NCBI RefSeq assembly: GCF_015694345.1
Contig: NZ_JADQDC010000010.1
Coordinates: 62,001 to 126,000, forward strand
Direction of reading: 5' to 3'
DNA from: Novosphingobium jiangmenense
Lineage (GTDB): Bacteria; Pseudomonadota; Alphaproteobacteria; Sphingomonadales; Sphingomonadaceae
Length of the DNA: 64,000 nucleotides
The position numbers and the translations under genes were made by a program. The notes beneath the pieces are model-generated. The model was not told the origin of the DNA, searched no databases, and worked only from the letters and a program-made list of their open reading frames with translations. This document shows, one piece after another, positions 61,344 to 63,854 of this stretch (the first letter of the stretch is position 1; every line of letters starts with the position of its first letter).

Positions 61344-61532
61344 TTCCCCCCCGGTGCGCCAGTTTCCTAACACAGGTTTGCATTACCAGTCGGACACGCC
61401 GCCGACGCGACAATTTCGATGCGTTTTCAAGGTTCGGAGGCGTTGCGGGGATTGCCAGACGGCCAAACTCGGGCAAGATGATCGCGCGTAGCCATCAGGC
61501 CGCGTGATCGCTTGCCGAAAGGGCAATGGGGG

Positions 61533-62951
61533 ATGCAATCCGGTCGCCAGGAAGGCGAGGCACACCTGTTCGGCCGATGGCCGTTCTCGCTGTGCCACGT
61601 CTTCATCGGACGGCCACTGCCAGGAGTGCTGTCCGCCCTCGCGCTGATCGCCGTCGCGCTGGTGGTTCGCCTTGCCATGGGCACGCCGCCACCGGCACCG
61701 CTCCTGCCGTTCTATCCCGCCATCGTCATCGCCACGTTCCTCGGCGGTCGCATCCCCGGCTACACTGCCGCGGTGCTCGCATGGCTTGGCGCCGGCTTTC
61801 TGTTCCTGCGCCCCGGCGCGGAAGTGGCGCTGCAATCGGGAGCGCCGCTGGCGATGCTGGTCTACATACCCAGCACGATCATCGTGCTGGAAGTGGTCCA
61901 TTCGCTGTGCACCAGCGCGATGAGCCTGATTGCCGCCAAGGAGCAGTTGGAACGCGAAGGGCGGGAACAGGCCGAACAGAAGGCCCACCTGCTCGGCGTG
62001 ATCGACGAGTTGCAGGCGATCTATGACGAAGCCCCCGTGGGTCTCGGCCTGCTCGATGCCGATCTGAAGTTCGCCCGCATCAACACCGCGCTCGCCGAGA
62101 TGAACGGCTTTCCGGTGGACCAGCACATCGGAAAGTCGGTGTGGGAGCTTGTCCCCGATCTCAAGAATTCGGCTGAACCGCTGCTGCGATCCGTCATGGA
62201 CAGCGGCGAAGTGATGCGCGGGGTCGAGATAACCGGCGAAACGCCCGCGCTGCCCGGCGTGCAGCGGACCTGGTCCGAAGTGTTCTACCCCGTCCACGGC
62301 CCGGACGGCCTGCGCCGCGGCGTAGGCATTTTCTGTGTCGAGATTACCGATCTCAAGCGGGCGCGCGAACGCGAGGACCTGCTAACCCGCGAGGTCGACC
62401 ACCGGGCCAAGAACCTGCTCGCCGTCGTGCAGTCCATCGTCCAGATGATGAAGGCCCAAGGCACCGTGGCCGAGTTCAAGGACGCCTTGATCGGCCGCAT
62501 TTCGGCGATCAGCCGCGCGCACAGCCACCTGTCGGAAAACCGCTGGAACGGCGTGCGTCTCCAATCCCTGATCGATGACGAACTGACGCCCTATGGCATA
62601 TCGTTCGCACTGGCCGACGAGGCGAGCAAGGTCGTCCTCAAATCGAGCACCGCCCAGGCACTCGGCATGGTCCTGCACGAACTCGCGACGAACTCTGCGA
62701 AGTACGGTGCGTTGTCGACCGATGGCACGGTCGAGGTCACCTGCACCAGTCCCGGTCTTGAAGGCGATGCGATGCTGCTGCGCTGGACCGAAACCGGCGG
62801 TCCGCCCGTGGCCGAGCCAAAGACACGCGGTTTCGGTACGCGCCTGATCGAACGCTCGGTAACCCACGGCATCGGGGGAACGCTCGATTACCAGTTCCGC
62901 CCCGAAGGCGTGTTCTGCTCGATCGGCATTCCCCGGACGGCGCTGAGCTAG
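61533..62951 (+). CDS. HWE-family sensor histidine kinase
   Basis: A 472-residue membrane kinase. An N-terminal four-helix DUF4118-like membrane domain (SALALIAVALVVRLAMG to IPSTIIVLEVVH) is followed by a PAS domain (IDELQAIYDEAPVGLGLLDADLKF) and an HWE/HisKA_2 core with DHRAKNLLAVVQSI (His) and the N-box HELATNSAKYGALS. The G-box is GFGTRLIERSV. HWE kinases often serve the alphaproteobacterial general stress response. The ATG at 61533 is preferred; TTG at 61512 also fits. Its TAG stop (62949-62951) lies in the first bases of the inverted-repeat element. Confidence 0.88.
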   Translation: MQSGRQEGEAHLFGRWPFSLCHVFIGRPLPGVLSALALIAVALVVRLAMGTPPPAPLLPFYPAIVIATFLGGRIPGYTAAVLAWLGAGFLFLRPGAEVALQSGAPLAMLVYIPSTIIVLEVVHSLCTSAMSLIAAKEQLEREGREQAEQKAHLLGVIDELQAIYDEAPVGLGLLDADLKFARINTALAEMNGFPVDQHIGKSVWELVPDLKNSAEPLLRSVMDSGEVMRGVEITGETPALPGVQRTWSEVFYPVHGPDGLRRGVGIFCVEITDLKRAREREDLLTREVDHRAKNLLAVVQSIVQMMKAQGTVAEFKDALIGRISAISRAHSHLSENRWNGVRLQSLIDDELTPYGISFALADEASKVVLKSSTAQALGMVLHELATNSAKYGALSTDGTVEVTCTSPGLEGDAMLLRWTETGGPPVAEPKTRGFGTRLIERSVTHGIGGTLDYQFRPEGVFCSIGIPRTALS

Positions 62952-63219
62952 GGTCAGGACCTATTACTCACGCCTTCGAGGTTTGAGGCAAAATGGCCCA
63001 GCGCAAGGCGGATGGGCGCAGGAATAGTGGTTCTATTTCTAGCCCATCCAACGTAGCGATGGGCCATTTTGGTCAAATCCCCCCCGGGACGCCGGAATGG
63101 CTTCCATCTCGAACGGAAATCCGCTTGGAAAGGCAACCAGCCTTCCCGGCGCGCATTTCCGCCCGATATGTTCGCCATTCCGGCGCCTCGAAGGCGTGAG
63201 TAATAGGTCCTGACCCTAG
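62948..63219. mobile_element. MITE-like nested inverted-repeat element (272 bp)
   Basis: Perfect 34-bp terminal inverted repeats (62948-62981 and 63186-63219, outermost CTAGGGTCAGGACC) flank an interior with two more stems. AAAATGGCCCA/TGGGCCATTTT frames the left half; GCCGGAATGGC/GCCATTCCGGC (63091-63101, 63174-63184) frames the right half. There is no coding frame. The terminal CTAG supplies the stop codons of both flanking convergent genes. It may be a non-autonomous transposable element, or serve as a bidirectional terminator. Confidence 0.75.
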
Positions 63220-63728
63220 ATCATGCGCGGGCTGCCGGCACTATGCCCGCCGTTGCGCCGCAGGACATCGCTGACCTGACCGCTGTCGGCAAAGTCATCC
63301 TCTACCGTGACCAGCACGGCACCGTCCTTCATCCGGTCGTTGTAGTAGGTCGCATCGGCCTCATCGATGCCATGCTTGGTCAGCACTTCGTTGAGCGAGC
63401 CGCCGATTGCGCCCAGCGCCGCGCCGATGCCGATGGCTTCCGGCACCGCCGAGGCGGCAATCGCTCCGGCAGCCGCCAGCGGGCCGACGCCGGGAATGGC
63501 CAGCGCCGCCACACCGAGGCCGGCACCCAGCGCACCGCCGCCGATGATCCCGCGCAGCACGTTGCGGTGATGCTCGTCGGTCACCTCGCCATCGCCCGAC
63601 CGGGTCGTGGTGGTGCCACCGTGATGCGCGATCACCGACATCTGCGTGTCACGCACGCCAAGCTCGCGCAGGTCGCTCACCGCGCGTTCGGCCTGGGCGT
63701 GGGTATCGAATATGGCGGATGCGGGCAT
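63216..63728 (-). CDS. General-stress-like protein with glycine-rich membrane segments
   Basis: A 170-residue protein. The N-terminal part is a ferredoxin-like fold (ASAIFDTHAQAERAVSDLRELGVRD), as in general stress protein 17M. Next is a Gly/Ala-rich hydrophobic stretch (about 75-130; GIIGGGALGAGLGVAALAIPG) and a C-terminal half with YYNDRMKDGAVLVTVED. Such proteins are common under general stress control in sphingomonads. The ATG at 63728 has AGAGGAGAG upstream. The TAG stop lies inside the MITE arm. Confidence 0.78.
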   Translation of the reverse strand: MPASAIFDTHAQAERAVSDLRELGVRDTQMSVIAHHGGTTTTRSGDGEVTDEHHRNVLRGIIGGGALGAGLGVAALAIPGVGPLAAAGAIAASAVPEAIGIGAALGAIGGSLNEVLTKHGIDEADATYYNDRMKDGAVLVTVEDDFADSGQVSDVLRRNGGHSAGSPRMI

Positions 63729-63854
63729 CGTGAACTCTCCTCTGGGATTGGAACCCGAGGAAGCGCCCGCAGACAGGTGCGTTCCCGCCCGAAGGACCAG
63801 ACGAGCCCGCGCTGCGATGGTGGCGCCGGAGCAATCCTGCGCCACCAACATGGA

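Follow-up and report, generated by a model that had tools for sequence, protein, structure and literature searches.

Introduction

In the REP/REPIN system, paired inverted imperfect hairpins move as one unit. REPs themselves have been described as 20–40 bp long (PMC3733652). MITEs are commonly viewed as insertion sequences minus the transposase, as summarized in PMC5896051. Of 11 IS5/IS427 elements considered from a survey of Paracoccus, 10 have 2-bp repeats, and members of this group may have two overlapping reading frames (PMC3281130). ERIC-type MITEs are described with a typical length of 123 bp and IS630-type-related ends (PMC6267812), and CIR of Caulobacter and Brucella is tabulated without terminal repeats (PMC2229807). 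The locus considered here holds a long palindrome between two convergent genes, and among the literature matches listed, mostly judged by their abstracts, no description of this element was found. What appears to be new is its core, two predicted strand-specific hairpins of ~96 nt, a shape that seems to be common to related elements in many other bacteria.

Structure of the element and its flanking genes

The window (the whole stretch of DNA that was analyzed, 64,000 nt) does contain the nested inverted repeat described in the first-pass annotation, with 34-bp perfect arms, two inner hairpins and CTAG at either end. The arms are perfectly complementary over 34 nt (62948–62981 and 63186–63219) and, in a repeat search, extend to 38 nt at 97%. 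Both inner stems had been given as 11 bp; this is correct for the left perfect stem (AAAATGGCCCA at 62990–63000 with TGGGCCATTTT at 63060–63070), while the right one measures 12 bp (CGCCGGAATGGC at 63090–63101 with GCCATTCCGGCG at 63174–63185). The minimum free energy of the palindrome is -184.3 kcal/mol, as compared with -94.5 kcal/mol (SD 5.1) for 200 shuffles (z = -17.6).

If read as an insertion, the element proper spans 62951–63216 (266 nt) and has one TA on each side (62949–62950 and 63217–63218), which the pattern over 71 copies presented below marks as the two copies of a duplicated target. It begins with a left arm of 31 nt (62951–62981, plus strand), the outer ~17 nt of which resemble an IS5-family terminal repeat. 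This is followed by module A, a 96-nt hairpin (62982–63077) assigned to the plus strand, where its fold is more stable, by a mini hairpin (63078–63089) that separates the two modules, and by module B, a 96-nt hairpin (63090–63185) assigned to the minus strand, where its fold is more stable. The right arm (31 nt, 63186–63216, minus strand) is the complement of the left arm. Only short open reading frames lie wholly inside the element (74 and 68 aa), and there is no transposase gene; a coding role for these two frames seems less likely in view of the dominance of two-sided base-pair changes and the varying lengths of the copies. It should also be noted that a 15-nt stretch of the kinase gene (62898–62912) shares 14 of 15 bases with the right end of the element (63184–63198), probably by chance. 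A relaxed Rfam search of the window region gave five matches, to microRNA models and one model of snoRNA type, all far below the gathering scores and considered to be hairpin artefacts.

The gene on the left encodes an HWE histidine kinase (61512–62951, plus strand; Pfam HWE_HK), with a TTG start as listed, although the true start may be later. The gene on the right (63216–63851, minus strand) encodes a general-stress type protein that matches YflT weakly, its 22.1 bits falling short of the curated cut-off of 26.2. The kinase stop, TAG at 62949–62951, consists of the target TA plus the G with which the element begins. For the gene on the minus strand, the stop CTA at 63216–63218 combines the last C of the element with the target TA; the last base of each flanking stop codon is thus supplied by the element. 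The first-pass annotation had suggested that the stops are provided by the element, and had named homologues that lack it and stop at the same positions as the observation that would speak against this idea. Such homologues exist: in two relatives (G151 and G230), the same kinase/stress gene pair is found with the element absent, and the codons at which the two proteins end are unchanged, the kinase ending with ...PRTVLR* and ...PRTALR* (...PRTALS* in the window) and the stress protein with ...MI* in all three cases. Judging from this comparison, the element landed between the genes and changed the end point of neither protein, creating no new stop positions. The exact pre-insertion site of the window can only be inferred, since in these two relatives GG lies between the stops in place of a CTAG overlap, which makes a difference of 6 nt from the window. 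The kinase/stress junction of G151 (L119), TAGGGTCAG, equals the first nine bases at the left edge of the element, target TA included, which may be due to chance, a footprint or the original target.

Copies, target site and gene ends

The element is found at five places in its own genome, the other four being two more full copies (97% and 96% identical), one shortened copy and one divergent copy (75%). Among the 98 genomes searched, 27, including its own, gave matches, some of which are partial; for relatives, these amount to 26 of 97 genomes, namely 25 of the 58 others of the genus and one of 39 more distant ones. The element is also present, at 67–83% identity, in six plasmid records, which come from Novosphingobium, Sphingopyxis and Sphingobium. 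Our copy table comprised 79 loci (78 fetched loci and the window), of which eight short copies were dropped to give 71 copies; L202, for which the edge was misplaced, was kept among the 71 and excluded from the alignment. As the copies share ancestry, the copy counts given here should not be taken as independent events. Some derivatives are short and retain the arms and mainly one module, i.e. module B in L100 2010–2199 (G000:C22) and module A in L105 (G057:C1:814193–814374), and L104 (G000:C2:32296–32331) is a lone terminal-repeat fragment. At L107, L195 and L196, a second terminal-repeat-like sequence abuts the element edge, as if a tandem insertion had taken place.

The edges of the 71 copies mostly read YTA / G...C / TAR, with CTA or TTA as the left flank in 56 copies and TAG or TAA as the right flank in 57. 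TA is present on both sides in 49 copies and missing on one or both sides in 22, and it should be considered that all these flank counts carry the preference for TA of the script that placed the edges. A four-base duplication, as in IS5 itself, was rejected, as the flanking tetramers often differ. Two syntenic comparisons with empty sites are available. In L209, the element-free relative of L207, the convergent genes end in one TTAA with a 4-nt overlap, and both proteins have the same end residue as at L207. In L219 and L221, the element-free relatives of L171, the convergent double stop lies in CTAG; relative to L171, the left protein has the same end residue and the right protein ends two residues away. 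In both L171 and L207 the element lies between a doubled TA. These data point to insertion into YTAR (CTAG, CTAA, TTAG or TTAA) with duplication of TA, and YTAR is also where convergent genes can share overlapping stops. Stop codons at the insertion site would survive because the element starts with G and ends with C.

The effect on gene ends was counted with gene calls from our own simple codon-model finder, which are unvalidated against annotation. The stop straddles the edge in 31 of 90 facing gene ends and the gene reads further into the element in three, as compared to an expectation, for truncation in a random frame, that reading further in would be about twice as common as an edge-straddling stop. 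Counted by copies, 25 of 71 have an edge-straddling stop, six of them on both sides, whereas a stop overlaps only 32 of the 224 non-coding YTAR sites that served as a control in the same loci (odds ratio 3.3, p = 2e-4). The proposal that the element inserts at CTAG-like sites at gene ends is supported by these 25 copies and by the flank counts (56/71 and 57/71). We are highly confident that this is a mobile element, the insertion of which, as far as can be read from the sequences, preserves stops. An overlap of gene stops with CTAG at the edge is seen once more at three loci of another genome with other terminal repeats (L419, L420 and L423 of G811).

Convergent neighbors flank 30 of the 71 copies, as compared to 24 of 215 other gene pairs in the same loci (p = 8e-8); the other 41 copies do not lie between convergent genes. 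The same count was made for 32 loci of three other carriers of the motif presented below (G811, G764 and G883), after 8 of 40 loci had been dropped for lack of the motif, including all those of G820 and G753. Here, 6 loci are convergent, 16 tandem and 10 divergent, as compared to 14, 57 and 6, respectively, of 77 other gene pairs. No convergent excess is thus seen in these three genomes (6/32 vs 14/77), and divergent neighbors are rather more frequent (10/32 vs 6/77). A search for terminator-like sites (a hairpin followed by a T run) between 62700 and 63500 gave none, the mean for shuffles being 0.6.

Terminal repeats and IS5-family elements

The ends of the element, TAGGGTCAGGACCTATTA, also bound an element of ~840 bp in another genome (G021:C3), and an element of similar size in the same genome as the window (G000:C12) is bounded by these ends with some changes. 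In both, DUF4096 and DDE_Tnp_1 domains are encoded by two frames that overlap; with the NCBIfam model transpos_IS5_3, the second frames score above its cut-off and the first frames just below. The element in G000:C12 (20846–21687; L098 1347–2188) is of the IS5 family, has terminal repeats similar to those of the palindrome and is flanked by CTAG. Compared by eye, the interior of our element looks unlike these two insertion sequences. A second group of copies has different ends, GGYCGTAAACTCATAA. Among 119 loci with that end, it is present at both ends of 11 candidate elements of 790–1260 bp, and both such elements that were examined (L312, 843 bp, and L329, 849 bp) encode an IS5-family transposase. 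The element occurs in several copies, lacks a transposase gene, shares its terminal repeats with an autonomous insertion sequence, lies at a duplicated target and has empty sites in relatives; on this sequence-based evidence, it is a non-autonomous element of MITE type, with ends that match autonomous IS5-family (IS427-like) elements.

The double-hairpin core

Alignment A1 was built from 36 of the 38 copies that are non-redundant at 93% (ungapped comparison), leaving out L180 and L184 (285 nt). For these 36 copies, 101 pairs were predicted, with 96.7% of the cells paired and with both-sided changes in 69 of the 101 pairs. The covariation score is 0.423, as compared to 0.152 when shuffled; shuffled and slid versions are far lower. 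The core consists of module A, the mini hairpin and module B, the modules being ~96 nt long (about 92–99 nt) and placed head to head. When both strands were folded, module A was more stable on the plus strand in 36 of 36 genus-level copies, by a mean of 11.8 kcal/mol, and module B on the minus strand in 36 of 36, by 12.7 kcal/mol.

Wobble pairs provide a second view of the strands, as an A.C cell corresponds to G.U on the opposite strand. Module A shows 86 G.U vs 4 A.C cells (with one pair giving 35 of the G.U cells), module B 40 A.C vs 5 G.U, and the arms are near balance, with 12 G.U and 9 A.C. When the reverse strand is used for pair prediction, module A keeps the direction of its bias in weaker form (23 G.U, 11 A.C), and the bias of module B is stronger (5 G.U, 113 A.C). 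Unpaired columns are also conserved, e.g. the AACCA loop of module B, and the arms are often perfect over 31 nt though they differ between copies. From these folds and alignments, a strand-specific double-hairpin core is strongly indicated and, in our opinion, very likely.

Distant relatives and the shared motif

A covariance model built on the element recovers full-length members from Phyllobacterium, Mesorhizobium, Asticcacaulis, Cohaesibacter and others, and gives matches, not all of full length, in 11 of 385 Alphaproteobacteria genomes, its own included. The search for distant full-length members covered 79 of 119 loci, and the distant set (A3) holds 19 loci from 14 genomes, with four opposite-strand duplicate rows left out. 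In this set, module A is more stable on the plus strand in 17 of 19 loci and module B on the minus strand in 17 of 19; L297, one of the two module A exceptions, has the opposite orientation according to the module model. The wobble cells (G.U/A.C) number 51/13 in A and 8/34 in B. When counted per pair, the values are 1 vs 14 for B (p = 0.001) and 10 vs 5 for A, the latter not being significant (p = 0.30). This should be considered together with the fact that the distant rows were fitted to a plus-strand RNA model, which favours G.U, so that only for B can the outcome be called conservative.

Module A carries the motif AAGG...GCAGGAA...CAAG...GACG. In diverged elements, one motif, GCAAGG...AACGC, is present in both modules and faces inward, and at 3 of 24 loci (L353, L314 and L350) the module A model matches module B on the opposite strand (E up to 0.001). 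In the Novosphingobium-type loci searched, module B is unreported by the module model (R2), the shared motif being eroded there. Matches to the module A model are found in 77 of 299 Pseudomonadota genomes (E up to 0.01). Twelve of the loci matched were read individually: GCAAGGCG...CAACGC is present in both modules of L377 and, with one or two changes, at L380, L381 and L388; the others also have two modules and a less complete motif, except for L372 and L386, which have one module only. The terminal repeats vary among carriers of the motif.

The exact pattern GCAAGGCGN{28,50}CAACGCNGC matches at least once in 137 of 299 genomes, many probably by chance. Most chance matches come from sequence that looks coding in GC-rich genomes, and many genomes are matched by the reversed control too; only genomes far above this control were used. 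The highest count, 329 vs 0 for the reversed pattern, is found in G716 (2.0 Mb), and the others are G810 (52/0), G857 (51/0), G737 (32/0), G811 (22/0), G740 (17/1), G751 (16/0), G883 (16/1), G694 (13/0) and G764 (10/0). Seven exact motif pairs occur in the fetched loci, from three genomes, all of them inward-facing and six spaced 51 nt. In the set of 24 modules left after weak folds and modules >90% identical to one already taken had been dropped, the motif strand is the more stable strand in 22, although the motif was part of the module choice. Three sets underlie the predicted strand assignment, the second and third being well separated from the first. With Rfam 15, no match at gathering score was obtained in 20 loci with element relatives.

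Discussion

Taken as a whole, the data are best explained, and we believe with good confidence, by a MITE mobilized in trans that uses a stop-preserving site and carries a strand-specific double-hairpin core. IS5-family transposases of the IS427 kind would move the element in trans, and its insertion between TA and R, with G first and C last, would leave TAG on either side. As the modules prefer opposite strands, a polymerase coming from either gene would meet its own module right after the arm. The core would act as a structured nucleic acid with an inward reading direction on each strand. Its most likely form would be RNA, located in the 3' part of both neighboring transcripts, and there it would protect or define the RNA end and so make the insertion tolerable. 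Such a role at RNA 3' ends agrees with the inward orientation and with the sites in Novosphingobium, whereas the lack of a convergent excess in G811, G764 and G883 speaks against it as a general role, for which neighbor orientation in these genomes gives no support, and the search for terminator-like sites between 62700 and 63500, which gave none, also counts against it; we consider it to be possible rather than probable.

In a serious rival explanation, which we rate as rather unlikely, the strand-specific hairpins are recognized as single-stranded DNA, as in REP/REPIN, with a role in moving or replicating the element. The REPIN architecture is indeed one of two inverted, imperfect hairpins joined in a single mobile unit, and the same kind of core occurs with different terminal repeats, as if it were important to the element itself. 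In DNA, moreover, G.T is also tolerated more than A.C, and the wobble asymmetry therefore cannot separate RNA from DNA. However, IS5-family transposases act on double-stranded ends, and the modules, at ~96 nt, are far longer than REPs of 20–40 bp (PMC3733652).

The bidirectional terminator kept between convergent genes, which the first-pass annotation had put forward, is in our view unlikely. The convergent excess (30/71 copies vs 24/215 other pairs) and the strong folding (z = -17.6) agree with it, and MITEs in general might form Rho-independent terminators, according to a review (PMC10969869). Nonetheless, a YTAR target by itself favours convergent double stops, 41 of 71 copies lie outside convergent pairs, and the absence of terminator-like sites around the element and of a convergent excess in the three other carriers speaks against the proposal.

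We give a similarly low probability to a functionless selfish palindrome, in which hairpin-templated repair, copying one side, would maintain the complementarity of arms and stems. This would account for arms that are often perfect for 31 nt yet different between copies, and for their small strand bias (12 G.U, 9 A.C). The opposite wobble bias of modules A and B and the occurrence of one motif across many families would, however, not be expected from repair, nor would the conservation of unpaired columns such as the AACCA loop. Finally, a chance palindrome or an ordinary terminator unique to this locus, favoured by the position between convergent genes and nothing more, is refuted by near-identical copies in the genome (97% and 96%) and matches in relatives, a chance origin also being at odds with the z-score against shuffles.

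The preferred reading, a trans-mobilized MITE with a strand-specific core, can be extended. With a confidence just short of even, the core may represent a mobile family of structured RNA (or single-stranded DNA) across Pseudomonadota that is carried inside differing terminal repeats, at least two types of which match IS5-family transposons. It would consist of one ~96-nt hairpin present twice, head to head, and each copy would function on its own strand and be read in the inward direction. The element would then be a vehicle for a conserved nucleic-acid module and no decayed insertion sequence, and stop-preserving insertion would be one reason for its tolerance. If true, a structured, strand-specific motif with no Rfam match in the loci tested would be common to mobile repeats across a phylum, and the idea that MITEs of bacteria carry functional RNA could be tested concretely. 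The combination of a YTAR target with G...C ends also suggests a simple rule for harmless insertion, by which single or overlapping convergent stops survive.

Comparison with known mobile repeats

Like REP/REPIN, the element pairs two inverted hairpins in one mobile unit. It differs in having arms of insertion-sequence type and modules of ~96 nt, which, at about 92–99 nt, do not have the unit size of 20–40 bp. With NEMIS/Correia, RUP and CIR, it would share the nature of a mobile repeat with long stem-loop transcripts; by their description, these are about 100–200 bp long and have other hosts and ends (PMC2229807). The ERIC-type MITEs MITEPlu5 and MITEEc1 resemble it in TA target duplication, very strong predicted RNA structure and high copy number, and are set apart by description, a two-module architecture being unmentioned in the available text of PMC6267812. 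In common with the MITEs of the IS5/IS427 group, the element is short, lacks a transposase gene, is present in several copies, duplicates TA and has the ends of autonomous ~840-bp IS5-family elements, but its interior is a paired-hairpin core that is found with several terminal repeats.
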